A stretch of DNA of 64,000 nucleotides from a virus, in IMG/VR virus record IMGVR_UViG_3300042567_000108, positions 1 to 64,000 of that record; one strand, written 5' to 3'. The notes under the pieces were generated by a model. The model was not told the DNA's origin and ran no database searches. It saw nothing but the letters and a program-made list of their open reading frames with translations. Shown one piece after another: positions 1 through 28,219 of the stretch (position 1 is its first letter; each line of letters starts with the position of its first letter). The translations under genes were made by a program, and so were the position numbers.

Positions 1-1
1 C

Positions 2-190: not shown

Positions 191-207
191 TAGTTAATTG
201 ACTGCTG

Positions 208-225: not shown

Positions 226-253
226 TGGTGGTGAGTCCACTAAAGGAGGAGTC

Positions 254-523: not shown

Positions 524-530
524 GGGACAT

Positions 531-1288: not shown

Positions 1289-1289
1289 A

Positions 1290-3154: not shown

Positions 3155-3162
3155 GAATATAA

Positions 3163-4842: not shown

Positions 4843-4859
4843 GAAAGGCGTAGTAACTA

Positions 4860-5785: not shown

Positions 5786-5787
5786 TT

Positions 5788-6312: not shown

Positions 6313-6314
6313 AT

Positions 6315-7873: not shown

Positions 7874-8106
7874 TGTCAGAGACACTAACAAAAATTATCG
7901 TTAACTGTGAGACTGGTGTAGTGGCAGAAGTGCCATTAACTGGTGAAGAAATTGCACAGCGTGAAACAGATGCAGCAGTATTTGCAGAGCGCAAAGCAGC
8001 AGAAGATGCAGCGATTGCTGCCGAAGAAGCAGCCAAAGAATCTGCTAAGGCTAAACTAGCAACACTTGGTTTAACAGCCGAGGAAATCGCAGCACTATCT
8101 AAGTAA
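7873..8106 (+). CDS. Small acidic helical tail-region protein (77 aa)
   Basis: An N-terminal LTKIIV-x-C-x-TGVVAEVPLTGEE region is followed by an Ala/Glu/Lys coiled helix ending AEEIAALSK. Homologue of 47221-47454 in unit B. It could be a fibre assembly or chaperone factor, inferred from position. The start overlaps the preceding TAATG. Confidence 0.65.
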   Translation: MSETLTKIIVNCETGVVAEVPLTGEEIAQRETDAAVFAERKAAEDAAIAAEEAAKESAKAKLATLGLTAEEIAALSK

Positions 8107-8132
8107 TTTAACTTTCAACTAAAGGAGATACG

Positions 8133-10133
8133 GTGGCAGGCAGAGATATTACGGATGGTCGCGCTACCCGCGCCATTGCTGTTGACCTTGGTATTGGTAC
8201 AGGTACTATCTGGCAAAACACTGGCATAGCCTATGACGTAGCCATTGCAGGTATCCCATTTTTCTTAGGGATTAAAGATGAGCGTCCTTATGAGCGTGCT
8301 ACTGCACCGTTTCGTAAAGAACAGTTTGATTCACAAACTAATCCAGGTGAGCAATCGCTTACTGGTTGGTGGCTGCGTAGTCAAAACTCATTTCATACTG
8401 GTAAAGGTGTTAAGTTTTATGACCCACTATCTAACCCATATGCTACAACTATTTCTACTAATTCGTACCGCTTTGCAGACAGTCAAGGGGTAAATGTATT
8501 TGATGAAGGAGAAGTGACACTTCTTAAAAGTGTAATTAATACACACGCAACTACTGGTCCAATTGTAGGTACAGACCATCAACATGTTAATCAACATGTT
8601 AGGTCAATTCAATGGAGCAGCACAAATGGTGTTTTGCTGCATGATGAATTTCATATAGATAAAATTGCTGCTAATGGAACAGTAACTCCTTTTGTTGCAT
8701 ACGTAGGTGGCACTGATGAAAAGGTTTATGCTGTATGTGACGATGGCGTATTTGCTTATTGGGTAACCAACAAGGTTCAAGGTGGCGCTAATAAAATCCA
8801 CATGTACAAGAAGGCATTAACTGACAATACAACAACCATTCCATCTCCTATGTTTTCTGGTACTGGTGTTGTAATTCAGTATGCAGCAATGGAGTTTATT
8901 AAAGACCGTATTGTTTTGTGTGTTAACAATTCTGTTTATGAATTAACTACTGTAGCAACCACACTACCTACACCTATATTTACTAATCAAAATACTAACT
9001 ATCATTATACAAGTGTTGCTGCTTCTGGTCCTGCTATCTATACCGCTGGACATTCTGGTATCTATTCTACTATTCAAAAATATACATTAGATAATACTGG
9101 TGTAATGCCTACGCTTACATCTGCTGTAGTTGCAGCAGAACTACCTGCTGGTGAGATTGTAGAAAAGTTGTACTACTACCTTGGCTATATGTGCATTGGA
9201 ACTAATAAAGGTATTCGAGTTGCAAGTATCAACGACCAAGATGGTTCTCTTACTTATGGTCCTCTTATTGTTGAAACATCACAGCCAGTTTATGACTTTG
9301 CTGGTAGAGATAGATTTATTTGGGCAGCATCGGGCATAGGTGCTTTAGATGGTGGACTTATTCGTGTTGATTTAGGAACAGAAATAGACTCATTGCGGTT
9401 TGCATACGCAAACGATTTGCAAATACAACAAAGCACAGAACATTACACAACAGGTGTAGCATTTTTGGGTAGCACTAATCGTCTTACATTTACTACAGCC
9501 TATAAGGTAACAAATGGTGCAATTTATTCAGAGTCACCTACAGAATTAGTAACCAATGGTTACTTAACTACTGGTTATATTAGGTATAACACATTAGAAC
9601 ACAAGCACTTTAAGCGTCTTGTTGGATTGGGTAACTTTGACTATGGCTCCATGAGCCTACAAACGGTTGACTTTGATGGCACTGTTTATGATGTTAACTC
9701 ATACGATGCTGCTATTGGTAATCCTGAGTCTACAATTACACAACCAACTGGTCCACAAGATGCAATTGCTTTGCGGTTTGTGTTATTTCGTGATGCAACA
9801 GACACTACTAAAGGTCCTGAGTTTAAAGGTTACCAACTTAAAGCACTACCTGCTAACCCACGTAACAGAATTATCAAGGTTCCTTTAATGAACTTTGATA
9901 TTGAAACAGACAAGTACAACACAACTATAGGCTACGAAGGCAGAGCCTTCGACAAACTAGCAGCACTAGAAACGGCTGAGAGCAATGGAGACATTGTGTC
10001 TTGGCAAGACTTCCGCACGGGAGAAACACAACAGGTACTTATTGAACAAGTACTGTTTAACACAAGTACTCCCCCCGATAAGAAACTTACTGGCTTCGGC
10101 GGTATAATTTCTCTGACCATTAGAACGGTATAA
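8133..10133 (+). CDS. Large tail/baseplate-like virion protein (666 aa)
   Basis: The GTG start follows AAAGGAGATACG. The homologue in unit B (48203-50419, 738 aa) also uses GTG. Shared regions include the N-terminus (AGRDIT-[DE]-GRATRAIAVD), FRKEQFD, SLTGWW, a central beta-propeller-like series (VAASGPAIY, IGTNKGIRVA, DQDGSLTYGPLIVETSQP) and the C-terminus EGRAFD...TIRTV. The B copy carries an inserted beta-domain of about 70 residues lacking here. Position before the lysis genes fits a tail hub or spike. Confidence 0.65.
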   Translation: MAGRDITDGRATRAIAVDLGIGTGTIWQNTGIAYDVAIAGIPFFLGIKDERPYERATAPFRKEQFDSQTNPGEQSLTGWWLRSQNSFHTGKGVKFYDPLSNPYATTISTNSYRFADSQGVNVFDEGEVTLLKSVINTHATTGPIVGTDHQHVNQHVRSIQWSSTNGVLLHDEFHIDKIAANGTVTPFVAYVGGTDEKVYAVCDDGVFAYWVTNKVQGGANKIHMYKKALTDNTTTIPSPMFSGTGVVIQYAAMEFIKDRIVLCVNNSVYELTTVATTLPTPIFTNQNTNYHYTSVAASGPAIYTAGHSGIYSTIQKYTLDNTGVMPTLTSAVVAAELPAGEIVEKLYYYLGYMCIGTNKGIRVASINDQDGSLTYGPLIVETSQPVYDFAGRDRFIWAASGIGALDGGLIRVDLGTEIDSLRFAYANDLQIQQSTEHYTTGVAFLGSTNRLTFTTAYKVTNGAIYSESPTELVTNGYLTTGYIRYNTLEHKHFKRLVGLGNFDYGSMSLQTVDFDGTVYDVNSYDAAIGNPESTITQPTGPQDAIALRFVLFRDATDTTKGPEFKGYQLKALPANPRNRIIKVPLMNFDIETDKYNTTIGYEGRAFDKLAALETAESNGDIVSWQDFRTGETQQVLIEQVLFNTSTPPDKKLTGFGGIISLTIRTV

Positions 10134-11633: not shown

Positions 11634-11847
11634 CTCCATCTATCTCAGTGGGTGCAGTTGTAACTGTCCCACATTCTATACACTCTTGGGCTAAGTCATA
11701 CCAGCCTACTGCTCTAGTGTCTTCATCCCACATAACCGTAACCTTAAACATTTTGCATCCACAAATGCAAGCAAAGGTTGGTTCACCTCTAAGGTCGTTC
11801 ACTTTTGCTATTCCAGTACATCTTATAGTACTCAACATCAAGTGCAA
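11620..11847 (-). CDS. Zinc-ribbon small protein (75 aa or shorter)
   Basis: Cys pattern CICGC...CIECG around a DLRGEPTF core, homologous to 57594-57818 in unit B (CPCGC...CAECG, DIRGEPTL). It probably binds zinc. The start is uncertain: an in-frame GTG at 11802 has a GGAA nearby and reduces overlap with the upstream gene. Function unknown. Confidence 0.65.
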   Translation of the reverse strand: MHLMLSTIRCTGIAKVNDLRGEPTFACICGCKMFKVTVMWDEDTRAVGWYDLAQECIECGTVTTAPTEIDGDDCA

Positions 11848-12538
11848 AGCGTTTCATGTGCTTAACTAATGCACCCGTGTGCGTGTACAAAGGTACTGCT
11901 GCCTTAGCCATTAGTCTAAAGAAGTTTATATCTTCCGATACGAACTGCTCGCCAACTCCAGTCTCGTTAAAGTAAGGGACAAAACCATGCACTTTTCGCA
12001 TGGCTGTGACTGCGTTGCGGTGCATGAGCACGAATCCAAAGCCCGCTGAACCGACCTTAATGACCGCATTAACTGGTAGCGGGTGTACATATGAAATCTT
12101 ATAATCATCTTCAGTCCAATTGAATACAGCAGGATACGGGGACATAAGTGAACCTTCATTCTCTTTAGAGATGAAGTATGTACCAGTAACTACTGGTCTA
12201 TCTACTGGGTCTGCTGCGTTCCATACTGCTTGAAGTGCTTCTTCATTAAGTACTATGTCGCTATCTACCCACAGAATCCAATCAAAGTCTGTCTTGTCAT
12301 ACCAGAAATCTAACGCTTGTTGACGTTGTCTTCCAATCTGGTTGCCCTGTACACGCATGGCTGATGTGATAGGCAGGCTTGACTTTAGTGCTGCATACAC
12401 AACACCTTCAGTGAACTTGCCATCAGTATTGCCACCATCACACCAACACAGAATGATTTGATTATTCGTCTGTATCTTCGGTCTGCTCGACATCTGTTGA
12501 TTGTGATACAGCGGTGTCTTCTTGGTTGTCTTGCTCAT
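11789..12538 (-). CDS. Glycosyltransferase-like protein, GT-A type (up to 249 aa)
   Basis: Has a nucleotide-sugar-like start (CWCDGGNTDGKFT), an RVQGNQIGRQRQ helix and WVDSDI, the DxD-type metal motif of GT-A enzymes, followed by VVTGTYFISKENEG and an ED...H arrangement near the C-terminus. Homologue of 47471-48193 in unit B, where it lies among tail genes. It might glycosylate host surface polymers, virion proteins or modified DNA. ATG at 12493 is an alternative start closer in length to B. Confidence 0.65.
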   Translation of the reverse strand: MSKTTKKTPLYHNQQMSSRPKIQTNNQIILCWCDGGNTDGKFTEGVVYAALKSSLPITSAMRVQGNQIGRQRQQALDFWYDKTDFDWILWVDSDIVLNEEALQAVWNAADPVDRPVVTGTYFISKENEGSLMSPYPAVFNWTEDDYKISYVHPLPVNAVIKVGSAGFGFVLMHRNAVTAMRKVHGFVPYFNETGVGEQFVSEDINFFRLMAKAAVPLYTHTGALVKHMKRFALDVEYYKMYWNSKSERP

Positions 12539-13136
12539 GATATGGCTTCCACCCTCCTAGGTGTTTGACTAATGAATTGAGTGCACGCTGCACCTTCATA
12601 CGTGCTCCGTCTGGTGTGCTTTCCATTTCCTTAGATAGCATTGTCCAGTCTGGTGAGTCTACGCTAAAGCGTAGCCTGAGTATGTTTTGCTTTTGCTCTG
12701 ATAATTTGTAGAAGGCTGATGCTATGTCTGAGCGTAGCGATAACCAATTGTTACCATCTGATGCTGCACCACTACCAAACTTAGCATTAAGGTCTTGAAT
12801 TTTGGTAGGGATTTCATAAGTCTCACCAATGATTGAAGGCAAGAAGGCTTCAACTACTGACACATCATAGTAATACAAGTCTGATGTATCGTAACCAACC
12901 TTACGTGCTTTCTCGCGCTCACAAAACTTAAGTGCTGCATTACGTAATGACTTAGCAATTAACTTGTCGCGGTCTTTTTGTTCTAGAGCAGACCACTCTT
13001 TGTACTTACGGGGATGACCGACAAACCATACCCACAACTCTTGCCCTATGTCATCACGTTCTAACATAGTGTAACGCTTAGCGTACTCGGCAGCGAGTTG
13101 CTGTACTAACTGGTTGTATTCCTCAATGTAATTCAT
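12462..13136 (-). CDS. Sigma-70-like DNA-binding protein (224 aa)
   Basis: The N-terminal ~100 residues resemble sigma region 2 (RDDIGQELWVWF, then a run of basic helices). A C-terminal helix-turn-helix at about 150-195 (LSEQKQNILRLRF...ARMKVQRALNSLVK) resembles region 4. Similar actinophage proteins are commonly called sigma factors. Homologue of 56282-56974 in unit B. The acidic Gln/Asp/Glu tail is low complexity. It could redirect host RNA polymerase to phage promoters; not proven by motif alone. Confidence 0.6.
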   Translation of the reverse strand: MNYIEEYNQLVQQLAAEYAKRYTMLERDDIGQELWVWFVGHPRKYKEWSALEQKDRDKLIAKSLRNAALKFCEREKARKVGYDTSDLYYYDVSVVEAFLPSIIGETYEIPTKIQDLNAKFGSGAASDGNNWLSLRSDIASAFYKLSEQKQNILRLRFSVDSPDWTMLSKEMESTPDGARMKVQRALNSLVKHLGGWKPYHEQDNQEDTAVSQSTDVEQTEDTDE

Positions 13137-13873
13137 TATGGAATAATTACCTCACCATTTACAATTGGAACAGCAAACGGTGTGACCTTGCGGTTGTGTT
13201 CAACAAGGATACCCATGCCTGTCTGCCAGTTGGCAGAGCCTGATGTAAGGTAAGATGCCTGTTTAATATCCATCATGTGACCGACCTCTAACCCGTATAA
13301 AGTACTGGTTTTTCCGTAAAATCCTGTGGTCTCATGTTGTAATCCAACGCGGTGCGTGTGTCCACACACTACTGATTTACCTAAGCGCTTGGCTAGATTT
13401 AATGCAGTGGCTCCTGGTGCACGGTTAAGTGCGCCTTCATCACCGTGTGCCATTACCCAACCAGGTAGTAACTCATGCATCTTATGTAAGTAATTAATCT
13501 TTAACTTGCCGTAGCCTAATAGTTCTTCAATCTCTAATGACTTGAGTGACATAAAGGCTGGCGCATACTTGCGCATGTATGTATCAATGCGGTCAGTATG
13601 GTTACTGCGTTGAATGTAAAATGGCTTGTTACCCAGTGCTTTGCGGTAACGAGCCATGATGTCGTGCGTTAAATCAATACTATCTTGTAGGGTCTCAGCA
13701 TATTCTCCTGCCATACCCTTGTTCCAACGTGATGGTTCTGGTGCATCTAGTTCATCTCCTACACACCAGAGTTCATCTGGTTTATAGTCTTGGATAAACT
13801 CTAGTGTGGCATCTACAGTTTTATCGTGTTGATACGGTATCTGTAAATCGCTTAATACGACTACTCGTTTCAC
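13136..13873 (-). CDS. Calcineurin-like metallophosphoesterase (245 aa)
   Basis: Ordered metal-binding motifs of the family: SDLQIPYQ near the N-terminus (DxQ where DxH is usual), GDELD, SNHTDR (replacing GNH[DE]), HGDE and GHTHR. It likely hydrolyses phosphodiester or nucleotide substrates; phage members include exonuclease- and ppGpp/cNMP-related enzymes, but the substrate here is unknown. Absent from unit B, where an unrelated PD-(D/E)XK-like gene occupies the slot before the sigma-like gene. The stop overlaps the sigma-like start. Confidence 0.75.
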   Translation of the reverse strand: MKRVVVLSDLQIPYQHDKTVDATLEFIQDYKPDELWCVGDELDAPEPSRWNKGMAGEYAETLQDSIDLTHDIMARYRKALGNKPFYIQRSNHTDRIDTYMRKYAPAFMSLKSLEIEELLGYGKLKINYLHKMHELLPGWVMAHGDEGALNRAPGATALNLAKRLGKSVVCGHTHRVGLQHETTGFYGKTSTLYGLEVGHMMDIKQASYLTSGSANWQTGMGILVEHNRKVTPFAVPIVNGEVIIP

Positions 13874-13875
13874 AT

Positions 13876-14169
13876 CTATTCTCCATTGCTAGGGATTCCT
13901 TCCCACTGTCCACGCTGGACAAGCAACCCAATTATGGCATAGTTTGCAAGGTCAAGTAGTGTATCTTCAATAGATTCATAGTTGGGCGTGTCGCCTGTAT
14001 CTATCAGGTTGTTAAGCCGTGCGAGTTTGTCATACATACGCACACGCAGCCCGTTCATTGGTCCGCCTGGTGCTCCTGATATATTCATAGGACCATAGTC
14101 GGCATGCTTTTTGTACATGATTTTTGCTAGTTCATTTAAGATTACATCTACATCATCACTGCTCTTCAT
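13876..14169 (-). CDS. DUF1599 / Nmad1-like protein (97 aa)
   Basis: The pattern KHADYGPMNIS...GLRVRMYDKLARLNNL...ESIEDTLLDLANYAIIGLL matches the all-helical family known as nucleotide modification associated domain 1 (DUF1599). Related by fold to MazG-like phosphohydrolases, it is often encoded in phages with modified bases. Homologue inside 55512-55898 of unit B. Whether these phages have modified DNA is unknown. Confidence 0.65.
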   Translation of the reverse strand: MKSSDDVDVILNELAKIMYKKHADYGPMNISGAPGGPMNGLRVRMYDKLARLNNLIDTGDTPNYESIEDTLLDLANYAIIGLLVQRGQWEGIPSNGE

Positions 14170-14470
14170 CTAATATCTCCTTCATGTGGTCGTCAAAGTT
14201 AGTCATTGCTTCTTTGATTGAGAACTCAGCCCATACTTCTTCTGCCTTGCCGTACTTGCTGGCTACTAGGATAGCAGCCAATGCTGTAGTACACATCTTG
14301 GCATCTTCTAAATCACCCTTAACAAGGGTGTCGTAGATGTCATGCAATGCTCCTACTACATCAAGCAATCTATCTTCTGATACTGGAATACCAATAGCAA
14401 AATCTAAATGGTCAACGTGTTCCCAAAACGTATGGTCAAGCGGGGGTAATGCACTCTCTGATTCGCTCAT
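14156..14470 (-). CDS. Acidic helical protein of unknown function (104 aa)
   Basis: No recognised family. Highly acidic and helical, with the stretch DRLLDVVGALHDIYDTL and a C-terminal DDHMKEILDEEQ. Overlaps the primase gene by 35 nt and the DUF1599 gene by 14 nt, so it is co-translated. The unit B gene in the same slot (55167-55505) starts with a CxxC finger and does not look homologous. Confidence 0.6.
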   Translation of the reverse strand: MSESESALPPLDHTFWEHVDHLDFAIGIPVSEDRLLDVVGALHDIYDTLVKGDLEDAKMCTTALAAILVASKYGKAEEVWAEFSIKEAMTNFDDHMKEILDEEQ

Positions 14471-15080
14471 CTAGCCACTCACTTCCTTGTTTAATCATCA
14501 TGCTGTTGACATCTTCACCATCAGGCATACTGATAATGTTGACATTACCTAACTCTCTACTGATTTTCTTGCCGAACTCTAGCCCTGCTGCATCACCATC
14601 TGCTAGCACAATGACCACATCAAAGTCGTCAAGTATCTTGGCATAGTGTGGCTTCCAGTTGTTAGCCCCAGGTATACCAATGGTTGGGTGTGTAGTTTTA
14701 ACTGACATCATAATACAATCGAACTCACCTTCGGTGACACAAATGTATTTGTCTGCAACGAAGCATGCTTGTGTATTAAACATGGTTGTCTTAGCACCTA
14801 CTAGACCCATGTACTTAGGGTCTTCACCATGCATACCACGGAATCTAATATCAACTACACCTGACGGTGTAATGTATGGGATAGCAAGTCTACCTTTGTA
14901 TGGCTCATGACCTGGAAGCGGTTCGTCTACCACCCCCAGATGAAAGATGCTTGCCTCGTCTACCGAGAGTTGACGGCTTGCCAGATATTCCTCTGCGAGA
15001 TTTATCTTTGCTGCGTATCTCTGTGTTGCCTGAAGCAAGAACTGACGCTGCGAATTTGACAGCCTCACGATAATCACCAC
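14436..15080 (-). CDS. Primase TOPRIM-domain polypeptide (214 aa)
   Basis: DnaG-type core: RLAIPYITPSGVVDIRFRG, the TOPRIM acidic motif VTEGEFDCI, GIPGANNWKPHY and VLADGDAAGLEFG (DxD of TOPRIM), followed by MPDGEDVN. It lacks its own zinc domain, which lies in the overlapping upstream frame (14905-15288). The start given is a GTG with a poorly spaced site, so it may instead be made by a +1 frameshift from the zinc-domain ORF or by coupled reinitiation. The same layout is found in unit B. Confidence 0.75.
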   Translation of the reverse strand: MVIIVRLSNSQRQFLLQATQRYAAKINLAEEYLASRQLSVDEASIFHLGVVDEPLPGHEPYKGRLAIPYITPSGVVDIRFRGMHGEDPKYMGLVGAKTTMFNTQACFVADKYICVTEGEFDCIMMSVKTTHPTIGIPGANNWKPHYAKILDDFDVVIVLADGDAAGLEFGKKISRELGNVNIISMPDGEDVNSMMIKQGSEWLDERIRECITPA

Positions 15081-15288
15081 CTTCTTTGTACATAATTAGG
15101 GAATAAGTATCGCCTTTAACTCCACAACCGTGGCAGATAAAGGCGTTCTTATCAAAGTTAACTGCTGCTGATGCATGTGAATCTATATGAAACGGACACT
15201 TCATTTTGCGCCAACCGCTGCCCATAGCAGGCACGGTTGCGCCTATGTAGTGTAGGTACTCACCAATATCAGGCTTGTCCCTTTCCAA
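14905..15288 (-). CDS. Primase zinc-binding domain polypeptide (127 aa)
   Basis: CHC2-type zinc finger: CPFHIDSHASAAVNF followed by FICHGCGVKGD, the DnaG N-terminal template-recognition module. Homology with unit B (54325-54699) is clear up to KFA at about residue 80 and then stops, while the +1 frame becomes conserved. That is the expected signature of a frameshift or split gene, with residues after about 80 being a non-conserved tail. The overlap with the TOPRIM ORF is 176 nt. Confidence 0.7.
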   Translation of the reverse strand: MERDKPDIGEYLHYIGATVPAMGSGWRKMKCPFHIDSHASAAVNFDKNAFICHGCGVKGDTYSLIMYKEGGDYREAVKFAASVLASGNTEIRSKDKSRRGISGKPSTLGRRGKHLSSGGGRRTASRS

Positions 15289-15616
15289 TTGCTCTCCTTA
15301 ATAAATCTACATACACATAGCCAGGCATGGTGCAGTACCAATCTTCAGGGCTTCCCCTACCCTTACGTTTGTGCCACACCACACCTGTCCATGCGTTGTC
15401 GTTAGCCATCTCGACTATCAACTCTTCTGTCCACCCCGCCAAGTCCATCTTGGCGTGGTTTTTTATCTCTATTGTAACTCCAGGTATACCTGAGATGTCA
15501 CCTTTATCTAGGGTTGCACCAGCCAAGCGTCTGTCTACATAAGGGAACCATTGCTTGAGATACTTAACTACATCTCGCTCTGCTCCTGAGCCTTTGGCTT
15601 TGGCTGCGCTACCCAT
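15269..15616 (-). CDS. Holliday-junction-resolvase-like PD-(D/E)XK nuclease (115 aa)
   Basis: KGSGAERDVVKYL helix, then KGDISGIPGVTIEIKNH, the D...ExK active-site pattern of archaeal-type resolvases and related phage nucleases, and WTEELIVEM. Positional homologue in B at 53973-54341 (EGDVVVR...IIECKAPG). Sits between helicase and primase and overlaps both neighbours, as expected for a recombination or branch-processing enzyme. Confidence 0.7.
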   Translation of the reverse strand: MGSAAKAKGSGAERDVVKYLKQWFPYVDRRLAGATLDKGDISGIPGVTIEIKNHAKMDLAGWTEELIVEMANDNAWTGVVWHKRKGRGSPEDWYCTMPGYVYVDLLRRAIGKGQA

Positions 15617-16431
15617 TACACCTTCATCTCTACTTGTCTGTAGTCTCTTACTACATCCTCTAAGTACATAGAGGCTGGGTCAAATGATAGTGATACGTAT
15701 GTGTTACCAGTAAAGTCTGCTTTACCATAACGATTTTTAACAGGGGCTACACATAGATATGCGTCTGGTCCCTGCATCATCTGTCCTACTGTCAACACCA
15801 TAGCAGGTACTTGACTAACCATACCCTGCAACGCTGAGCGTGGCTGACATGGAAAACCTTGAGCACCTTCTTTAGTATGGTGTAACACTAGTACACATGC
15901 ATTGGTATCTCTTGCAAGATACTTGAGTTCTTTCATAACTTGTCGCATAGCAGCAAACTCTTCGCCACCATCAACAGCAATATCCATAAGGTTATCTACT
16001 ACGATAAGCGTAGGACTTCTACCCCACATAGTTTCAAATGCAGATACTTCTGCATCTAAATCGTTAAGGGTTGGGCTGGGTTCAAACGACCAGTACAAAT
16101 TAGAGAACTCTCGCAAGAGTTCTTCTGCTTTGGCTGGCTCCGTCTTAAGCATATGTTCTGCATGCGCCTGACTTATCTTTGCTTTCATAGCAAGCAAACG
16201 CATAGCCATAGTGTGTGCATTAGTATCGGCAGAAAAGTATAGTGTCGGTTGTTTTAGCCTTGCTGCGATATGTAATGCAATAGATGACTTACCTGCGCCA
16301 GGAGTACCAGCAATTACTGATACTTCTGCACGGCGTAAGATAATGCCTTCCCGTTGAAAAGCCTGAAAGGGAGGGGGTAATGGTTCTCCTCCTACTTCTG
16401 GCTTACCAATACTACGGCGTAATGTTTTCAT
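15616..16431 (-). CDS. DnaB/RecA-fold replicative ATPase (271 aa)
   Basis: Walker A AGTPGAGKSS at residues 41-50, Walker B LIVVDNL near 140 and a LVLHHTKEG motif near 180 where DnaB-family ATPases place a sensor. Contains only the motor domain, without the DnaB N-terminal domain, so it is shorter than a normal helicase. Homologue of 53034-53816 in unit B. With primase next to it, it probably acts as the replisome helicase. Confidence 0.8.
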   Translation of the reverse strand: MKTLRRSIGKPEVGGEPLPPPFQAFQREGIILRRAEVSVIAGTPGAGKSSIALHIAARLKQPTLYFSADTNAHTMAMRLLAMKAKISQAHAEHMLKTEPAKAEELLREFSNLYWSFEPSPTLNDLDAEVSAFETMWGRSPTLIVVDNLMDIAVDGGEEFAAMRQVMKELKYLARDTNACVLVLHHTKEGAQGFPCQPRSALQGMVSQVPAMVLTVGQMMQGPDAYLCVAPVKNRYGKADFTGNTYVSLSFDPASMYLEDVVRDYRQVEMKV

Positions 16432-20348: not shown

Positions 20349-20763
20349 GCTTCCTCCAATGTGCCCATGCTGCTGAAGGTTTGTCGTACCTATGTACTAT
20401 GTACTCCAGCCCCCGCGCAACTTGTTGCGGGGCTGGGGTTCCAGGCTTGGTGCCTAAGACTTGTGCTATACCATAGGCTGTTGACTCAGGGTTATCCGCA
20501 TCATGTCTCCATGCTGACTCTTTACCCCATAGTTTCATCAGTGCTTTATGTTCGCTGCGGTTCCACTCAGGGAACCACATTTTCATGTATGAAACTGCAT
20601 ACAATTTTGCTGCGTATGGTGTCCATACTTTAGGTAGTCTGTGTTCGTTATAACATAGGTCGTTAACATGTTGTGAGTAATACTTATAAGGCAGACCTAG
20701 CATTGTAGTAAAGGTCAACATCATAGTACTACCAACAGCCAACCACTTTCTTACTTCGTTCAT
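20335..20763 (-). CDS. Membrane-anchored lytic transglycosylase-like protein (142 aa)
   Basis: An N-terminal hydrophobic segment (about residues 7-24) is followed by an SLT-like core: LMKLWGKESAWRHDADNP (catalytic Glu in KESAW), AYGIAQVLGTKPGT and a C-terminal GLEYIVHRYDKPSAAWAHWRKHGWY motif typical of actinobacterial and actinophage transglycosylases. It would cut peptidoglycan glycan strands at the cell surface. It lies in the early region, far from the late endolysin. Counterpart in B: 57941-58333. Confidence 0.75.
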   Translation of the reverse strand: MNEVRKWLAVGSTMMLTFTTMLGLPYKYYSQHVNDLCYNEHRLPKVWTPYAAKLYAVSYMKMWFPEWNRSEHKALMKLWGKESAWRHDADNPESTAYGIAQVLGTKPGTPAPQQVARGLEYIVHRYDKPSAAWAHWRKHGWY

Positions 20764-20772
20764 GACTATCTC

Positions 20773-20901
20773 CTAGTCTTCGTCTCCGTACATACGGTCA
20801 GGCTCATTGCATACACACTCATAGATAAAGCAACCGCAATCTTCGCACTCATCTGATTCACCTGTTGCAACAGGGTCATCAAGCGGTGGTTCGTAACTCA
20901 T
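20773..20901 (-). CDS. Small acidic Cys-rich protein, MSYEPPLDD type (42 aa)
   Basis: Starts MSYEPPLDDP and has cysteines in CEDCGCFIYECVC. The first nine residues are identical to the unit B protein at 58670-58777, whose remainder lacks the cysteines. The shared N-terminus in two diverged genomes supports translation. Overlaps the XRE gene. Confidence 0.6.
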   Translation of the reverse strand: MSYEPPLDDPVATGESDECEDCGCFIYECVCNEPDRMYGDED

Positions 20902-21166
20902 AGTTTCTCCTTCGTGTTACATGTATTGGGTCTCCATACATACTGCTTCTTATGATTGTATCTATTGATACTCCGTATACATCACACAATTTTAGCAGCC
21001 TTCTAAGTGTAATGTTTCTACTGTTGCGTTCGTAACTACCCACTGCTTCTTTAGTAAACTCACCATTAGTAACTAGTTCTACATGCTCAAGGGTATAACC
21101 TTTGAGTAAGCGTACATACTTAAGGGTGTTTACTACTTCTAAGTATTCAGGATTTAAGTTACTCAT
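20879..21166 (-). CDS. XRE-family helix-turn-helix regulator (95 aa)
   Basis: LKYVRLLKGYTLEHVELVTNGEFTKEAVGSYER is a lambda-repressor-like HTH, followed by ITLRRLLKLCDVYGVSIDTII, the usual XRE C-terminal helices. The start at 21166 is set by a GGAAG site and the overlap with the preceding stop. Could control early transcription; no lysogeny genes accompany it. Confidence 0.75.
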   Translation of the reverse strand: MSNLNPEYLEVVNTLKYVRLLKGYTLEHVELVTNGEFTKEAVGSYERNSRNITLRRLLKLCDVYGVSIDTIIRSSMYGDPIHVTRRRNYELRTTA

Positions 21167-21272
21167 TATCTTCCTCACATTCATCACACTCTTTGCATAA
21201 CCCACAGTCATCACATACAAAGTTATACTGCTCGCATACTTCACAGTATGGTGGTGTGTATGGTCCACTCAT
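21159..21272 (-). CDS. Cys-rich mini-protein (37 aa)
   Basis: Eight cysteines in a repeated CxxC spacing: YCEVCEQ, VCDDCGLCKECDECEED. It almost certainly binds zinc. Its stop overlaps the XRE start. Too short for family recognition. Confidence 0.6.
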   Translation of the reverse strand: MSGPYTPPYCEVCEQYNFVCDDCGLCKECDECEEDNE

Positions 21273-21275
21273 GGC

Positions 21276-21632
21276 TTACCAACTAGCCAAGTACTCAAAC
21301 ATAGCATCGTCTACTGACTCATCTATTACTCTGTCAAGTAGTGTAATTGTTTCTTTTAGGATATCCCAGTACCATTCATCTATACCTGTACCACCAAAGA
21401 AAAACCCTTCTGTAGGTGGCAGTAGTTCCATTGCTGTTTCTTCTGTGCCTTCATCTACTACTTTTTGGCAGTCATCTCGCAGTTGAATGATGTCTTGTTT
21501 GGTTAGGCTAACAGGTGTGCAGTCATCTACTACACCAGCATTGTTGATAATCCAACCATGAATTGCATTAGCCTTACGCCAGTATGCAACCTCATGTACT
21601 TGCTTCTCATACAGATACATGTCTAGTCCCAT
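21276..21632 (-). CDS. Conserved phage protein, MGLDMYL family (118 aa)
   Basis: Starts MGLDMYLYEKQ, then VAYWRKANAIHGWI, a pattern I recognise from many unrelated phages as an uncharacterised conserved protein. C-terminal aromatic FFFGGTGIDEWYW and a terminal acidic helix. No catalytic motif assigned. Confidence 0.65.
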   Translation of the reverse strand: MGLDMYLYEKQVHEVAYWRKANAIHGWIINNAGVVDDCTPVSLTKQDIIQLRDDCQKVVDEGTEETAMELLPPTEGFFFGGTGIDEWYWDILKETITLLDRVIDESVDDAMFEYLASW

Positions 21633-21633
21633 G

Positions 21634-21843
21634 TTACTCTCCTTGTTTTAGTACTTCGATAGATACTTTGTTAATGAATGGCTTGGTCATGTTAACCCAG
21701 TCCACACCATACTCATCAGCCAATCGCTCCCATGCTGCTGTCTCTACATCACGCTGGTCAGGGCTGAATGTTGTTTCGATAGTAGTGACCATGATGAAAT
21801 GGTCTGCTGCAAATAGAACATCAGTTGTAATTGTATTGCTCAT
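21634..21843 (-). CDS. Small protein of unknown function (69 aa)
   Basis: ATG at 21843 overlaps the stop of the upstream TM gene and has GGAGG 10 nt away; longer in-frame starts lie inside that gene and are less likely. Mixed alpha-beta with TIETTFSPDQRDVETAAWERLADEY. No family recognised. Confidence 0.5.
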   Translation of the reverse strand: MSNTITTDVLFAADHFIMVTTIETTFSPDQRDVETAAWERLADEYGVDWVNMTKPFINKVSIEVLKQGE

Positions 21844-22019
21844 TAGAATGGTACCTCCACATGGTTTTGACATGACTTGCGCCATGCTAATAATCTACGG
21901 CGTAGATATCTGTTTTCTTCTATCAGTTTTACATTGGCATACGTCAGTATAAACAGCATCACTAGGCTAGCACCTAACGCTATAGTTATACCAACAATCA
22001 TTGCTGTATCTAAATACAT
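21843..22019 (-). CDS. Single-TM mini-protein with basic tail (58 aa)
   Basis: One TM helix (about residues 7-27), then an ENRYLRRRLLAWRK positively charged juxtamembrane helix, predicting N-out/C-in topology. CAGGGAGAG site upstream. Unit B has a similarly built protein at 61969-62109 (TM then LERRLRRY), so a TM-plus-basic-helix micro-protein is a shared trait of the early regions. Confidence 0.6.
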   Translation of the reverse strand: MYLDTAMIVGITIALGASLVMLFILTYANVKLIEENRYLRRRLLAWRKSCQNHVEVPF

Positions 22020-22092
22020 GTTGCTCTCCCTGTAGTTATAAAAAAGTTATGGACTTGTAGCGGTCCGCTGAGGTTACGGTGCCCCGCACCAT

Positions 22093-22136
22093 AAAAAAAG
22101 GGAGAGTGAGTGACTATCTCTAGCCACCCACCCTCC
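22093..22136 (-). terminator. Rho-independent terminator after ssb-like gene
   Basis: On the minus strand a 16-bp stem (GGAGGGTGGGTGGCTA with TAGTCACTCACTCTCC, three G-U pairs) closes a GAGA loop and is followed by C and seven Ts. It starts 6 nt after the OB-fold gene, so that gene's transcript ends here and the downstream genes need their own promoter. Confidence 0.85.
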
Positions 22137-22142
22137 TGTCTT

Positions 22143-22487
22143 TTAGTTTGTTACGACCTCATGAACCTCTAACTGTAACTGAGGTGCTCGTCGTGCGCTT
22201 TCCTCCACGTTTTGACGGCGGTCAAAGCGTGTAACTAGACGACCTTTAAGTGTTACCAGGTCGGATTGTTCCTGACCAGCACGAGTCACACCAAGGATTT
22301 CACCTACGGTTGAGTCATCCAATGCCACGATATTAAACCCACATACATACACTTGACGGTCAGCCTCCCCGTTTGAGAACGCTGAGATTTCGCGTTGGTC
22401 AAACCAGCCTGTCACCATGGTTCCCTTTGAACCTGTGAATGTACGTACGTTCTTAATCTTACCTGTGATTGTTACTTCGTTGTTCAT
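22143..22487 (-). CDS. OB-fold single-stranded DNA-binding-like protein (114 aa)
   Basis: Beta-rich with VTITGKIKNVRTF at the start, a YVCGFNIVALDD strand, then VTLKGRLVTRFDRRQN and QLQLEVHEVV, the five-strand rhythm of an OB fold with arginine/aromatic DNA-contact positions. Reasonable SSB candidate for the replication module, encoded separately and closed by a strong terminator. Confidence 0.6.
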   Translation of the reverse strand: MNNEVTITGKIKNVRTFTGSKGTMVTGWFDQREISAFSNGEADRQVYVCGFNIVALDDSTVGEILGVTRAGQEQSDLVTLKGRLVTRFDRRQNVEESARRAPQLQLEVHEVVTN

Positions 22488-22529
22488 CTGTTTCTCCTTG
22501 TTAGTTTCGGTAGTTGATTTTAGGCTGAT

Positions 22530-22558
22530 AGCCCGCTATCACGAAGTGTAGCGGGACT
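22530..22558 (-). other. Hairpin between two early genes
   Basis: CCCGCTA and TAGCGGG arms (7 bp) with a 10-nt loop lie in the 85-nt gap between 22573-23127 and the OB-fold gene. No U-tract, so partial attenuation or RNA processing is more likely than termination. Confidence 0.4.
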
Positions 22559-22572
22559 ATCTGCCCTTCTTT

Positions 22573-23127
22573 CTATCTTACGTTGTTTTCCAATGGCTTG
22601 TCACATGATTGACAGTCATTGAATGCTTTGGGTGTGAGTATGTGACACCATTTGCACTCTGTTTCACGTGCACGTTGGCGCTCATCGTCCAACTCCCATA
22701 GTTCTTCATACTCACCACCGTCCATCAATTGTGCGATAGGTGGTGTGAACTCTTTTCGTAGTAACCAAGGGTCATCTTGGTCTACGAACTTAACGGATAG
22801 TTCTATGAGAGTCATGCTCTCGTCTTTCCATATTTCGGTGAACACTGCTTTTCTCCTTGCTTTACCGACTACTGTTTCTGACGACACCCAATCGCTTGCC
22901 GTTGGGTTGTCGTCTTGGTTTAGGGTTAGTGCTTTGCCTTCCCCTAGTCTGTCATCTTCATGCAAGTCCCAAGCGTGCTTGTCGGACTTGCTTTCTTTTG
23001 TTTCGTAGCAGTTGATGCAACTGTCTACTTGCTCATCGCCTGTGTATAGGTGCATGAGGTTTGATGTCACAGGGAACTCACAGCATGTTTCTGTGTGTGT
23101 GGTGATGCTGATGCCTTGTTCTGTCAT
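22573..23127 (-). CDS. Cys-containing early protein (184 aa)
   Basis: Two Cys clusters, CCEFP...SCINCY near the N-terminus and CKWCHILTPKAFNDCQSCDKP at the end, could form one or two zinc ribbons around an acidic helical middle. It is the first gene of the minus-strand early region next to the unit junction. No family recognised. Confidence 0.55.
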   Translation of the reverse strand: MTEQGISITTHTETCCEFPVTSNLMHLYTGDEQVDSCINCYETKESKSDKHAWDLHEDDRLGEGKALTLNQDDNPTASDWVSSETVVGKARRKAVFTEIWKDESMTLIELSVKFVDQDDPWLLRKEFTPPIAQLMDGGEYEELWELDDERQRARETECKWCHILTPKAFNDCQSCDKPLENNVR

Positions 23128-23283
23128 TTCCTTATCCTTTCGTCTGTTTCCACCTGATGTGAAAACGCGTATATCAATACTCCTAAGTCAATCGGATAGC
23201 GCATATGCGCTAGACGCGGGGCGTGGCTGGACTGCGAGCCTGCGAGCAGGCGCACATTCATGGGCGCTCCAGACACGACAGAT

Positions 23284-23299
23284 GCGTGGTTTACCACGC
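23284..23299. repeat. 16-bp palindromic repeat, copy 1
   Basis: GCGTGG-TTTA-CCACGC, a perfect 6-bp stem with TTTA loop, identical to copy 2 at 23518-23533 with 218 bp between them. Candidate protein-binding or RNA-hairpin element. Confidence 0.7.
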
Positions 23300-23517
23300 T
23301 GAGAGCAATCATTACCGCTTTGCTCTGCTGAATAGGCAGAGCAGGGAATGATTTGACGACGGAGTATGATAGGAGCACCGCAGGAGGACGAGCCTGAGTA
23401 TGTCGTAGCGCGGCTTTGACGCGCCGACAGACTGGCGAGAGATGAGGGCTGAGTGCATGTCAGCATGAGAAGGCAATAGACCATAAGGCTATGCCTTCGA
23501 TTGCGACAGGCGAGAAC

Positions 23518-23533
23518 GCGTGGTTTACCACGC
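23518..23533. repeat. 16-bp palindromic repeat, copy 2
   Basis: Exact copy of the GCGTGGTTTACCACGC palindrome at 23284-23299, here followed by GGACGGACAG, a word repeated near 23618. Confidence 0.7.
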
Positions 23534-23645
23534 GGACGGACAGCCTTCGTTCCGACCAGTCAGTACGATAGAACTGGTGAGGGTTTGGCAACCATTGCCA
23601 AGGCATTAGTTCATAGACGGACAGTCCGAGTATATTCATTTAGTT

Positions 23646-23700
23646 AGACTGTCAGTATCAGACTGGCTCCCAGTCTGCAGGGAGACAGTACACTGTCAGA
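23646..23700. repeat. Cluster of GACTGTCAG-like words and hairpin
   Basis: Contains AGACTGTCAG, the hairpin CAGACTGG-ctc-CCAGTCTG at 23659-23677, the palindrome ACAGTACACTGT and CACTGTCAG. The dense related words in both orientations resemble iterons or multi-site binding arrays. Confidence 0.5.
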
Positions 23701-24029
23701 CAACCCTCAGTATAGTAGTCTGTCTGTACAATAATAGTTCTGTCTATAGTCTATGACCCCCAGTCTTTTAACTATCGGCTGTAGTTCATACTGTATCTCT
23801 ATCTAGAAATATTTCTGTATATAGTTACAGGGGGCATATAACAGTCTGACCAGCACTTTTATAAATATTTCTGTCTAAATAGTTCGTTTAGGTAGTTTGA
23901 ACGGATTAAGTATAAGTAGAGACTAAAATATATTCGGAAGTCTTTATAGAGCCTTCCTCATACTGTTACAGTGTACTGTACAAATATACATCTGTAGGGC
24001 GGGGGGACTCTGCCACAAAGGAGATGAAC

Positions 24030-25934
24030 GTGGCTACACCAGCGCACAAGGGATTCAAAAAGGGTGGGGAACACCACCTCGCCAAGGGGGTTGCCCAGGC
24101 TAAAGCCGATGTACTTGACAGGGTACGTCAAGGGGTGAGTGTCCAAGCCGCTATGGTTGCGGCGGGTAAAAAACCAGACACCGTTCGTCAGTGGATGAAC
24201 CGAGACCCCGAGTTTGCCCGTAACTTGGAAGAAGCCAAGGAAGCGGGAAGTAAGCAGACCTTCACCGCCATGGGCGTTGAGAAGGAATCTATCCCATTTG
24301 CGGATTTCAGTAAGATGTTTTTTGACCAGACAGTCTTCCCCCATCATCAGAACTGGGTAGACCTACTGGAAGGGCGCGAACCTTCGTGGCTCCCGCCTTC
24401 TATAATTTATGAGCCAGGTGAGGGGAACCGCCTGCTAATTAACGTGCCACCTGAGCATGCTAAATCCACGGTTATCACCGTGAACTATCCGACTTACCGC
24501 ATCGCCCTCAATCCTAACATCCGCATCATCGTGGTATCAAAGACATTGAATAAGGCACGCGAGTTCGTATACGCTATCAAGCAACGATTGTCTCATCCCC
24601 GCTGGCTCAAGTTACAGACCGCATATGGTCCCGAGGGCGGATGGAAAGAAGACGCAGATACTTGGCGTACCGATACTGTCTATCTTGGCGGCGATGCGCG
24701 TAACTCTTCAGAAAAAGACCCAACGCTTCAGGCGCTAGGTATGGGTGGTCAGATTTACGGCGCCCGTGCCGACCTGATTATTCTTGACGACTGTATCACT
24801 ACCGCTAACGCCCATGAGTGGGAACAGCAGATGAACTGGCTACAGAAGGAAGTTATTACTCGTTTGGGTAAAAACGGTAAACTTCTAGTAGTAGGGACTC
24901 GAATTGCGGCAAACGACCTTTACAAAGAACTTCGCAATCCTAAGCACTGGTCTGGCGGTAAGACACCGTTTACCTATATGGGTATGCCTGCAGTTCTTGA
25001 ATATGCTGAGAAACCCGAAGACTGGCAAACCCTATGGGCTGAGTCGGATGTTCCGTGGGATGGTGATTCGGATACTCCGAAAGAGAATGGATTCTATCCT
25101 AAGTGGGATGGACCAGCGCTCTTTAAGCGCAGAAGCGAAGTTACACCGTCAACATGGGCACTTGTCTACCAACAAGAAGACATTCAAGAAGACTCCATAT
25201 TCCCGCCAGTACTCGTGCAGGGAGCGACCAATGGGATGCGCAAGCGCGGACCGTTAAAGGCTGGAGCAGCAGGACATCCTCCACAAGTTGAAGGACACAC
25301 TGTAATTGGATTTGACCCTGCTATGGCAGGTAACGCTGCATTTGTTGCGTGTACCTACAACAGAGCAGATGGCAAGATTTATGTGCTTGACTGCATCAAC
25401 ATGGAAGAGCCAACACCACAAAAGATTCGGGCGACAATTGAAGAACTCGTTATTAAGTACAGACCACAAGAGTTCCGAGTTGAAATTAACGCACACCAGA
25501 AAGCCTATTCACTCGATGACGACTTACGAAACTGGCTTGCTGCATACGGCGTACGGCTTGACGCGCACTTCACAGGGAAAAATAAATGGGACACTTCGTT
25601 TGGTGTTGCTTCAATGTCTAACCTCTTTGGCACTGTCCGTGAAGACAAGTTTCAAAAAAACAACATATTAGAATTACCTTCATCTGAAGGTTCTGAAGGT
25701 ATCAAAGCCTTGACTCAACAACTCCTAACATGGAAGCCAGAGACCAAGGGTAAGACCGATACCGTCATGGCTTTATGGTTTGCTGTGATTCGCATACGCG
25801 AACTGATGCAGGCTAGTAGCCGAACATCGCAGTACGCAACAAACCGCTGGGCAACACGTGCTCAGATGGACCAACGCTATGCAGTAAACCTCGATGAGAT
25901 GTTTGCTGAGCAGTGGCAAGAAAACTTCGGATAA
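24030..25934 (+). CDS. Terminase large subunit (634 aa, unit B)
   Basis: Packaging ATPase/nuclease. N-terminal ~60 residues form a small-terminase-like helical DNA-binding region (VQAAMVAAGKKPDTVRQWM). Walker A-like PPEHAKST near residue 140, Walker B LIILDDC near 250, then a C-terminal RNase-H-fold nuclease beginning VIGFDPAM with later acidic residues. GTG at 24030 is preferred because AAAGGAG ends 6 nt upstream; the ATG at 24024 abuts the site. Unit C has a diverged copy at 63572. Confidence 0.9.
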   Translation: MATPAHKGFKKGGEHHLAKGVAQAKADVLDRVRQGVSVQAAMVAAGKKPDTVRQWMNRDPEFARNLEEAKEAGSKQTFTAMGVEKESIPFADFSKMFFDQTVFPHHQNWVDLLEGREPSWLPPSIIYEPGEGNRLLINVPPEHAKSTVITVNYPTYRIALNPNIRIIVVSKTLNKAREFVYAIKQRLSHPRWLKLQTAYGPEGGWKEDADTWRTDTVYLGGDARNSSEKDPTLQALGMGGQIYGARADLIILDDCITTANAHEWEQQMNWLQKEVITRLGKNGKLLVVGTRIAANDLYKELRNPKHWSGGKTPFTYMGMPAVLEYAEKPEDWQTLWAESDVPWDGDSDTPKENGFYPKWDGPALFKRRSEVTPSTWALVYQQEDIQEDSIFPPVLVQGATNGMRKRGPLKAGAAGHPPQVEGHTVIGFDPAMAGNAAFVACTYNRADGKIYVLDCINMEEPTPQKIRATIEELVIKYRPQEFRVEINAHQKAYSLDDDLRNWLAAYGVRLDAHFTGKNKWDTSFGVASMSNLFGTVREDKFQKNNILELPSSEGSEGIKALTQQLLTWKPETKGKTDTVMALWFAVIRIRELMQASSRTSQYATNRWATRAQMDQRYAVNLDEMFAEQWQENFG

Positions 25935-25944
25935 GGAAAATAAA

Positions 25945-26247
25945 ATGGCAATGATGAAAAAAGCAGTAGCAAAGAAAGCAGCAGTAAAGATTACAGGAAC
26001 TGCTAAGTCAACTGGCGGCAACATGAAGAGCCAGGCAATGAAGAAGGTAGTAAAGAAGGCTGACCCAATGAAAACATCAGCACGTTCTCACCAAGCAGAT
26101 TTAGCAAGAATGTCAGGCGACACAGCAGGAAACAAAAAGTTTAGAGATGATAAAAAGGCTGGCAAAATGTATCGCGAAGATAAACCAAGCCCTGCATATA
26201 TTGCTGGCAAGAAGGCTGAACGCCGCACACTTAAGTCATTTAAGTAA
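25945..26247 (+). CDS. Lys-rich basic protein after terminase (100 aa)
   Basis: ATG after AAGGAAAA. The N-terminal half is a run of AKKAAVK and KKVVKK, like the small basic proteins of the capsid cluster. The C-terminal half is more structured (ADLARMSGDTAGNKKFRDDKK, PSPAYIAGKKAERR). Probably DNA-binding or packaged; function unknown. Confidence 0.65.
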   Translation: MAMMKKAVAKKAAVKITGTAKSTGGNMKSQAMKKVVKKADPMKTSARSHQADLARMSGDTAGNKKFRDDKKAGKMYREDKPSPAYIAGKKAERRTLKSFK

Positions 26248-26256
26248 GGAAATAAA

Positions 26257-26436
26257 ATGCCAGTACCAGTAGCAGCAGCAGTAATTGCTGGAACTATGGG
26301 CGTAGTAGGTGGACGCTTAGTTAAAAAGCAATATGACACTCACAAAAAATTAGAAAAATTAAACAAGAATACTTCGCGCACTGAAAGTGGTATTAAAGGT
26401 CGCGGTGGAGCAAACGTAAATAAACTTTACAAGTAA
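26257..26436 (+). CDS. Small basic protein with hydrophobic N-terminus (59 aa)
   Basis: Preceded by AAGGAAATAAA. Residues 2-19 (PVPVAAAVIAGTMGVVGG) are hydrophobic enough for one membrane segment; the rest is Lys/Asn-rich. Lies between terminase and portal genes. No family recognised. Confidence 0.6.
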   Translation: MPVPVAAAVIAGTMGVVGGRLVKKQYDTHKKLEKLNKNTSRTESGIKGRGGANVNKLYK

Positions 26437-26461
26437 TTCTTAATCAATCGTTAGGACAATA

Positions 26462-28219
26462 ATGTTAACAATGGACCAGATTGGCGCGAGAGTCCAGACT
26501 CTGCGCTACCGTGCGCATGGTCGTGACCAGCGCAACGGTGACGTACAGATGGTGCGCCAAGGAAAGATTAGTCAGGTATACCCTAACTTCTTTCCAGATG
26601 GTATTGACCAAAACGTAGTTGCTAACTTTATTGATATTGTTGCACGTGACTTGTCAGAAGTTATGGCACCGCTTCCAGCGGTAAACTGTTCTGCTGCCAA
26701 CCAAACTAATGACCGTGCTCGTAAGTTTGCTGACACACGCACACGTATTGCATCTAACTACTTTAATCATTCTGATTTACAAGTACAGATGTACAACGGT
26801 GCAGACATGTACATTACATACGGTTTCCTCCCATTCATTATTGAATTGGATGAAGAAGCAAAGTTGCCACGTATCCGACTAGAAAACCCAGTGGGCGCTT
26901 ACCCAGAGTTTGACCGCTACGGACGTTGCGTTGCCTTTGCTAAAAGATACTCAATGACACTAGGTGAGTTAGTTGCGATGTTCCCAGAACATCAAAGCGC
27001 ACTACTTGGTAGAGATGGGTACAAGCAAGACCTTAACGGCATGATTGAAATGATTCGTTATTACGATAAAGACCAAACAGTTCTTTATTTACCATCACGC
27101 AACAATATGTTATTGTCGCATGCATCTAATCCTATGAAGAAGATGAACGTAATCATTGCACGCCGCCCTTCACCAGATGGTGAATTGCGTGGGCAGTTTG
27201 ATGATGTACTTGGTATTCAGTTACTTCGCAACCGTTTTGCATTACTTGCAATGGAAGCAGCAGAGAAGTCAGTACAAGCACCAATTGTTTTGCCACAGGA
27301 TGTACAAGAACTACAACTTGGTGGAGATGCTGTTATTCGTACAGCAAACCCAGCAGGTGTACGCCGTGTTGAACTTACGCTCCCACAGGGTGCATTTACA
27401 ACACAGCAGGTACTTAACCAAGAACTGCGCGTTGGAGCGCGTTACCCTGAATCTCGTACGGGTAACATTGATGCTTCAATTGTCACTGGACAGGGTGTAC
27501 AGGCTCTACTTGGTGCATTTGATACACAAGTTAAATCAGCACAGGCTATCTTCTCAGCAGCACTGCGTGATGTTATTGCGCTTTGCTTTGAGGTAGATGA
27601 AGCATTATTTAACGAAGAAAAAACAATTCGTGGTATTGATGCTGGTTCACCGTTTGCTTTAACTTATATTCCTTCAAAGGATATTAAAAAAGATTATTCT
27701 GCAGATGTAAGATACGGAATGTTGGCTGGATTGAATCCAGCACAGGGACTTATCTTTATGTTGCAGGCACTTGGAGGGGGACTTATCTCCAAGGACATGG
27801 CTATGCGTGAACTACCATTCGGCGTCAACGTGACTCTTGAACAAGAGAAAATTGAAATTGAAAAGATGCGTGACGCATTGGTTGGTTCATTAGCATCTAT
27901 GGCACAAGCAATTCCTCAAATGGCTATGCAGGGACAAGACCCATCAGCACTAGTACGCCAGATGTCAGAAGTGATTAAGGCACGCAAGGCTGGCAAGTCT
28001 ATTGAAGATGCCATTGAGGAAGTGTTTAAACCTGAGAATCCTCCTGCTGGCGCAGAGGCACAGTCTGAGCAACCTGTCCCCGCTGCTCCTGGTTCCGCTC
28101 CAGCAGGAGGCGCTCCAGTACCACAAGGGCGACCAGACTTACAATCAATTCTTAGCACTATGACTGGCGAAGGTCAGGGACGTAGCGCAGTACGGACAAC
28201 TAGAGAACGAGCAGTCTAA
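26462..28219 (+). CDS. Portal protein (585 aa)
   Basis: Size and location directly after the terminase fit the dodecameric portal. The beta/alpha wing region (DMYITYGFLPFIIELDEEAKLP, NPVGAYPEFDRYG) and the long C-terminal crown-like helices (EKIEIEKMRDALVGSLASMAQAI) are typical, with a Pro/Gly/Ala-rich disordered tail. It anchors the packaging motor and tail. No direct N-terminal MuF fusion is seen. Confidence 0.75.
   Translation: MLTMDQIGARVQTLRYRAHGRDQRNGDVQMVRQGKISQVYPNFFPDGIDQNVVANFIDIVARDLSEVMAPLPAVNCSAANQTNDRARKFADTRTRIASNYFNHSDLQVQMYNGADMYITYGFLPFIIELDEEAKLPRIRLENPVGAYPEFDRYGRCVAFAKRYSMTLGELVAMFPEHQSALLGRDGYKQDLNGMIEMIRYYDKDQTVLYLPSRNNMLLSHASNPMKKMNVIIARRPSPDGELRGQFDDVLGIQLLRNRFALLAMEAAEKSVQAPIVLPQDVQELQLGGDAVIRTANPAGVRRVELTLPQGAFTTQQVLNQELRVGARYPESRTGNIDASIVTGQGVQALLGAFDTQVKSAQAIFSAALRDVIALCFEVDEALFNEEKTIRGIDAGSPFALTYIPSKDIKKDYSADVRYGMLAGLNPAQGLIFMLQALGGGLISKDMAMRELPFGVNVTLEQEKIEIEKMRDALVGSLASMAQAIPQMAMQGQDPSALVRQMSEVIKARKAGKSIEDAIEEVFKPENPPAGAEAQSEQPVPAAPGSAPAGGAPVPQGRPDLQSILSTMTGEGQGRSAVRTTRERAV

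Follow-up and report, generated by a model that had tools for sequence, protein, structure and literature searches.

Short direct terminal repeats (DTRs) are described for the Beephvirinae, Streptomyces phages of cluster BF: in the available portions of the papers, 253-bp repeats are reported for FlowerPower and four others (PMC9753666) and a 265-bp repeat for a further BF phage (PMC13097060), and the sequence records of five of six Beephvirinae carry such repeats (FlowerPower, 253 bp; Dennebes, 254 bp; Kumquat and WRightOn, 264 bp each; Immanuel3, 275 bp). A short DTR is also found at the concatemer junction of T7 and T3, where, as stated in the accessible part of PMC3276506, the polymerase pauses to start packaging. 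LanE43AprE7 and LanE43AprF5 (E7 and F5) are cultured phages of 'Ca. Planktophila', a member of the Nanopelagicales (PMC10202952, available in part). In the main text of that paper as available, the words 'terminal', 'circular', 'headful' and 'repeat' each occur zero times and no termini are given, and the titles and abstract openings of the literature on actinophage and terminase ends make no mention of termini for Nanopelagicales phages. The locus described here probably marks a concatemer junction in two actinophages that package with short DTRs in the T7-like manner; as a place where genomes are cut for packaging, it is a kind of site already known. The genome ends predicted here are exact enough to be tested in phages whose bacterial hosts abound in fresh water, and with them metagenomic genomes of this group could be correctly oriented and completed.

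The window analysed is a stretch of 64,000 nucleotides, positions 1-64000 of a 79,356-bp IMG/VR record. The record consists of two phages of ~39 kb, both kin of the freshwater 'Ca. Nanopelagicales' phages, and because of their kinship with E7 and F5 we infer that they infect the same bacterial order. The two large terminases of the record are 61% identical to each other, and the first is 64% identical to that of E7 and 42-43% identical to those of three Beephvirinae. Where tested, the Beephvirinae also resemble genome 1 in gene order, with terminase, portal, a large ORF, capsid and a reverse-strand helicase and nuclease. Both terminases match phrog_38 (E 1.8e-69 for genome 1), and their N-termini match the small-subunit family phrog_4044 (E 5e-6 and 5.6e-4 for the first and second), which suggests that the terminase reads the site itself. 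PF20901 was found in the first only, at an E value of 4.7e-4, below Pfam's cut-off, with the small-subunit-like stretch at 24024-24270; the two Beephvirinae terminases scanned differ from those of the window in having no small-subunit match. Searched by sequence against solved structures, the first terminase gave two weak matches, to 'DNA maturase B' (4bij, E 0.0014) and to a terminase (8dgc, E 0.0021), so that it is weakly like a T7-type DNA maturase B. Elsewhere in the window, several genes, a DnaB-like helicase among them, have matches in the other genome that run the opposite way (11800-16300 and 47600-55900), an amidoligase-like gene lies near the end of genome 2 (60463-61758, minus strand; PF12224, E 1.2e-6), and the 1702-residue protein encoded at 28873-33981 matches nothing in Pfam or PHROG at E 0.01.

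An earlier note on this DNA had pointed to a conserved block ahead of both terminases, at 23815-23930 and 63325-63430, and the words it named are present at both places. In a local alignment of 23400-24030 with 62900-63575, positions 23752-23942 aligned with 63268-63459 at a score of 58, compared with a mean of 21 and a maximum of 34 for 500 dinucleotide-shuffled pairs, none of which reached 58. The note's remark that the surrounding DNA is not alignable holds beyond this stretch of ~190 bp and fails within it, since similarity already sets in ~60 bp ahead of the block, at TATGACCCCC and TTTAA. Comparison of the DNA upstream of related terminases bore out the conservation of the block, as its words recur in the same order in relatives. 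The comparison covered 162 loci: for the first terminase type the best 80 among 204 that were confirmed, for the second the best 80 of at least 594, and E7 and F5. The pattern TTTGAAC[AG]G[GA]TTA was found at 137 of these (500 nt searched, at most 2 mismatches); among the 25 others, 11 have <200 nt of sequence ahead of the gene, and the remaining 14 truly lack it. A TTTCTGT..TATA box is present at 134 of the 162 loci, and a strict core, GACCC-TTAA-GTATC[CT]C, at 78 (67 of the first type and 11 of the second). The spacing from CTGACCAG to TTGAAC is always 51 nt at the 26 loci having both exact words, out of 79 examined for the first terminase type. In E7, F5 and 14 contigs of 38-41 kb, which make 16 near-complete genomes, the TTTGAAC[AG]G[GA]TTA pattern and the TTTCTGT box each occur exactly once, beside the terminase, and E7 and F5 have the same boxes in the same order as the window. 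A repeated promoter was rejected on this count of one copy per genome.

Several smaller features of the block were noted by eye. The G/C run after the TTTCTGT box (23830-23834 and 63348-63353, and in relatives) is G or C depending on the phage and stays in the same place, and the upstream TGACCC box is likewise found as TGAGGG in some phages. Pairing of the G/C run with the GACCC box was rejected, since both can be C or both G. A hairpin at CTGACCAG was also discarded as a conserved feature, being clear in the genome 2 type and weak in the genome 1 type. A search of 23400-24100 against Rfam gave no match.

The conserved core just upstream of the block resembles the DTR right ends of the Beephvirinae. 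Five of these right ends (Abafar excepted) have the form ACCC..GGTTGTTAA..23../AGTCCC, where the slash marks the cut, which is like the freshwater arrangement TGACCCCC..TTGTTTAA..22../AGTATCCC; in full, the Beephvirinae core reads ACCC..TTGTTAA..23..AGTCCC, with a left end of /GTCCC. In both groups this place lies a few hundred bp before the terminase, the right end of the Immanuel3 DTR being ~400 bp before the gene. To compare them, 90-nt cores (TGACCCC-TTAA-~22-GTATC[CT]C) from 60 non-redundant freshwater phages were scanned against every 95-nt stretch of the Beephvirinae genomes, on both strands in steps of 15 or 20, with dinucleotide-shuffled cores as background and no place chosen beforehand. 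A stretch spanning the DTR right end came 1 of 6140 in FlowerPower, 1 of 6018 in WRightOn and 6 of 6144 in Dennebes. In Kumquat it came 1 of 4476, or 2 when 20 nt or more had to lie on either side, so that the top match of the core was the DTR right end in three of the four genomes with record-defined ends, these genomes being related to one another and the comparison having been prompted by the end of Immanuel3. Abafar, the sixth record, has a 396-nt end repeat that extends ~130 nt beyond the homologous place, its ends having been found with PhageTerm (PMC11536984, available in part). The best match of the core in Abafar is still at the homologous place (rank 1 of 4362, or 3 under a stricter rule). 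A profile HMM of the core gave insignificant matches in the Beephvirinae (E at least 73), two of the five falling in the two DTR copies of FlowerPower.

Segments from farther downstream served as controls. With the leader segment, the DTR end of WRightOn ranked 2504, and the best rank between DTR end and terminase was 56. With the TTTGAAC box region, the corresponding ranks were 457 and 104 in WRightOn and 774 and 11 in FlowerPower, the last on the minus strand. As the downstream segments fail to mark the DTR end and the core does, the core is common to known DTR ends, and the boxes of the block (CTGACCAG; GTTCG..TTTGAAC) are a freshwater speciality. The Beephvirinae are GC-rich and have no match to the TTTGAAC box region at their DTR end; where the freshwater phages have the CTGACCAG box, they have palindromes like TGTGA-N6-TCACA. 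Such palindromes were seen ~30 and ~100 bp past the DTR right end in five Beephvirinae (L196, L198, L199, L200 and L202), and they may be similar to CRP-type sites.

A candidate left end is seen upstream of the core, in a motif resembling Beephvirinae left ends such as GGGGATGTACA/GTCCC. The pattern GGNRGA[TC]AGT[AC], which was defined after the loci had been seen, is present upstream of the core at 50 of the 90 loci in a non-redundant set, 19 of 39 in the first type and 31 of 51 in the second, against 0.004 expected per 240-nt window, and is absent from 40. By a looser pattern, the distance from the left motif to the right site is mostly 91-218 nt. The predicted freshwater repeats of ~100-220 bp would be shorter than the 253-275 bp of the Beephvirinae. 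In E7 the predicted repeat would lie at about 2637-2839; the E7 and F5 records end elsewhere and have no end repeats. The best reading of the block is, then, that it sits just downstream of a predicted DTR concatemer junction. The large terminase, with its own small-subunit-like N-terminal stretch, would recognise the region; replicated concatemers would be cut at GTATC[CT]C, giving the repeat its right end, and about 100-220 bp upstream at GGNRGA[TC]A/GT, giving it its left end, and the terminal repeat would be present at both virion ends. The boxes of the block would then lie within the first ~115-140 bp of unique DNA past the repeat, ahead of the terminase operon. They most likely serve terminase recognition, with a late promoter or leader sharing the spacer, and may have either role or both. 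Conservation, order, copy number, position and the likeness of the core to known DTR ends were observed; the cuts, the repeat lengths, the protein that binds and any promoter role are predictions. The positions of these features are collected in Table 1.

Table 1. Features predicted or observed around the two terminase loci and at the switch between genomes; a slash marks a predicted cut.
Genome	Feature	Position	Strand	Basis
1	Predicted left DTR-end motif GGGAGACA/GTA, cut between 23687 and 23688	23680-23690	+	Motif in relatives; compare Beephvirinae left ends
1	Predicted direct terminal repeat, ~104 bp	23688-23791	+	Inferred from two cut motifs
1	Conserved core TGACCCCC-TTTTAA-N21-GTATCTC	23754-23799	+	Strict core at 78/162 loci; matches Beephvirinae DTR right end
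1	Predicted right cut, about 23791/23792	Inside genome 1 core	+	Inferred
1	TTTCTGTATATA box and G-run	23812-23834	+	Box type at 134/162 loci; once per genome, 16/16
1	CTGACCAG box	23846-23853	+	Fixed 51-nt spacing to TTGAAC
1	GTTCG-N9-TTTGAACGGATTA inverted-repeat box	23882-23908	+	137/162 loci; once per genome, 16/16
1	Leader hairpin GGAAG...CTTCC	23936-23957	+	Weak as a group in first type (mean z -1.05, n=16)
1	Large terminase, small-subunit-like N-terminus (residues ~24-81)	24024-25934	+	phrog_38, phrog_4044, PF20901
2	Predicted left DTR-end motif GGTAGATA/GTC, cut between 63172 and 63173	63165-63175	+	Motif in relatives
2	Predicted direct terminal repeat, ~137 bp	63173-63309	+	Inferred from two cut motifs
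2	Conserved core TGACCCCC-GTTTAA-N22-AGTATCCC, predicted right cut between 63309 and 63310	63270-63317	+	Core scan
2	TTTCTGTTATA box and C-run	63326-63353	+	Box conservation in relatives
2	GCCCTGACCAGGGC hairpin/box	63362-63375	+	Alignments of relatives
2	TGTTCG-N9-TTTGAACAGGTTAT inverted-repeat box	63400-63428	+	Conservation, copy number
2	Leader hairpin(s) CGGAGTC..GACTCCG	63453-63483	+	Mean z -3.55 (21 loci); arms differ between relatives
2	Large terminase, continuing to record position 65440	63572-64000	+	Profile and identity searches
	154-bp stretch, switch between genomes	7536-7689		Identical to 46884-47037; order in relatives
	Second copy of 154-bp stretch	46884-47037		Identical to 7536-7689

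The strongest alternative sees in the block mainly a late promoter and leader for the structural operon, used by the phage's own sigma-K-like factor, with the nearness of a genome end being incidental; we regard this as possible but somewhat doubtful. Genes for sigma-K-like factors, candidate readers of a late promoter, are present in both genomes (12465-13136, minus strand; 56282-56971, plus strand), and the block occurs once per genome, immediately ahead of a long forward operon, with boxes that are not common to Beephvirinae DTR ends. Downstream of TTTGAAC, the spacer to the terminase holds a hairpin whose arms change between relatives, suggesting transcription through the leader; over 37 non-redundant leaders, its mean z was -3.55 for the second type (21 loci) and -1.05 for the first (16 loci). 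Given the sigma-K-like factors and these differing arms, a late promoter at TTTGAAC may exist. A search with the sigma-70 consensus, whose reach is that promoter type, found no hexamer pair in 23400-24030 and two in 62900-63580 (2.3 expected by chance), both further downstream than the block, and by eye the two types have no constant -10 word in common after TTTGAAC. A late promoter would also leave the upstream core and the left motif unexplained. In a difference from T7 and T3, scans of the window's proteins, which covered part of the genes, turned up no single-subunit RNA polymerase, and the host polymerase with a phage sigma factor is more likely to be used in these phages. The two functions might even be coupled in one compact element, with sigma bound at the TTTGAAC box and the fused-domain terminase on the same array, so that late transcription is joined to genome-end formation. 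We consider this speculative and improbable; if true, late transcription would time packaging without a T7-type RNA polymerase.

The earlier note had proposed a cos/pac or late-promoter element, and of this the placing of a genome-end or packaging element before the terminase is supported, with a DTR junction as the better reading of its type. Short cohesive ends made at a cos site, or headful packaging from a pac site, are unlikely alternatives: a position ahead of the terminase suits any packaging site, but DTRs are what the cultured phages of similar core and terminase carry, and two cut-like motifs stand apart from each other here. Exact end repeats close some of the freshwater contigs into circles, an outcome open to any of the three packaging types; the repeats measure 127, 127, 123 and 38 bp in 4 of the 14 near-complete contigs, and 127 bp in one more. 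One contig of 39.9 kb has the TTTGAAC box at each end and looked like a captured terminal repeat, a reading that was set aside, its repeat of exactly 127 nt being an assembly overlap.

Contig ends were also used as a stand-in for read starts. For 17 of 47 loci of the right module, a real contig end lies no more than 3 kb away. That of contig L208 falls about 1-2 nt short of the predicted right cut, and the other ends are further off or scattered, for instance ~10 nt after the cut (L241) or ~22 nt before it (L225). Of 88 whole contigs, hand-picked among the matches listed (at least 232 stretches), 19 have an end in the 400 nt that precede the TTTGAAC box and 3 in the 400 nt that follow it. A hypervariable spacer would give the same loose gathering, and with no exact pile-up, the contig ends neither prove nor refute the predicted termini. 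Finally, the idea that the block is a chance likeness of AT-rich intergenic DNA, to which its AT-rich spacers with many TATA words might lend some colour, can be dismissed given the shuffled alignments and the fixed spacing and single copy per genome in many relatives.

The earlier note had further suggested that the shared site explains the joining of different genomes at the same point. This proved wrong, as independent contigs cross both blocks and the switch lies in the tail region: at 100% identity, one contig (L006) matches 20702-27264, straight through the first block, and another (L086) matches 53572-75438, through the second. The upstream DNA of related loci matches the expected module, at 13-24 kb in 71 of 80 first-type loci and at 51-63.6 kb in 61 of 80 second-type loci. 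Weaker cross-matches were seen in 13 and 8 loci, but those of the first type never reach 56-63.6 kb, nor those of the second 17-24 kb. The switch coincides instead with a 154-bp stretch, the sole identical stretch of >100 bp in the tail regions compared, and around it the order in relatives is unlike that of the record, running from 43.9 to 8.1 kb in one contig (G001) and from about 4.4-5.2 to 47.6 kb in three others (G014, G015 and G018). Joining at the terminase is ruled out by these relatives, the independent contigs and the 154-bp stretch.

Most likely, the switch is an assembly figure-eight of two circles at the 154-bp stretch. The first 127 nt of the record equal 78821-78947, and one contig (G012) has an end 127 nt short of where the 154-bp stretch finishes; together with that stretch, these 127-nt overlaps fit what a k=127 assembly graph yields for two circles whose common stretch exceeds k. 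Genome 1 is then 7536-46883 (39,348 bp) and genome 2 the remainder, and the 79-kb record contains two genomes, not one. The switch may also be that of a real recombinant, since the same contig (G012), which is 99.8-100% identical to 46911-79356 plus 1-8640, tracks the record ~950 nt past the first copy of the stretch and so shows the same switch. Whether figure-eight or recombinant, the switch is not at the terminase. Three further IMG/VR records, of 61,995, 76,622 and 230,319 bp (L257, L391 and L301), also carry the TTTGAAC pattern, and the second of these, at about twice the length of a genome, may be another fused record.
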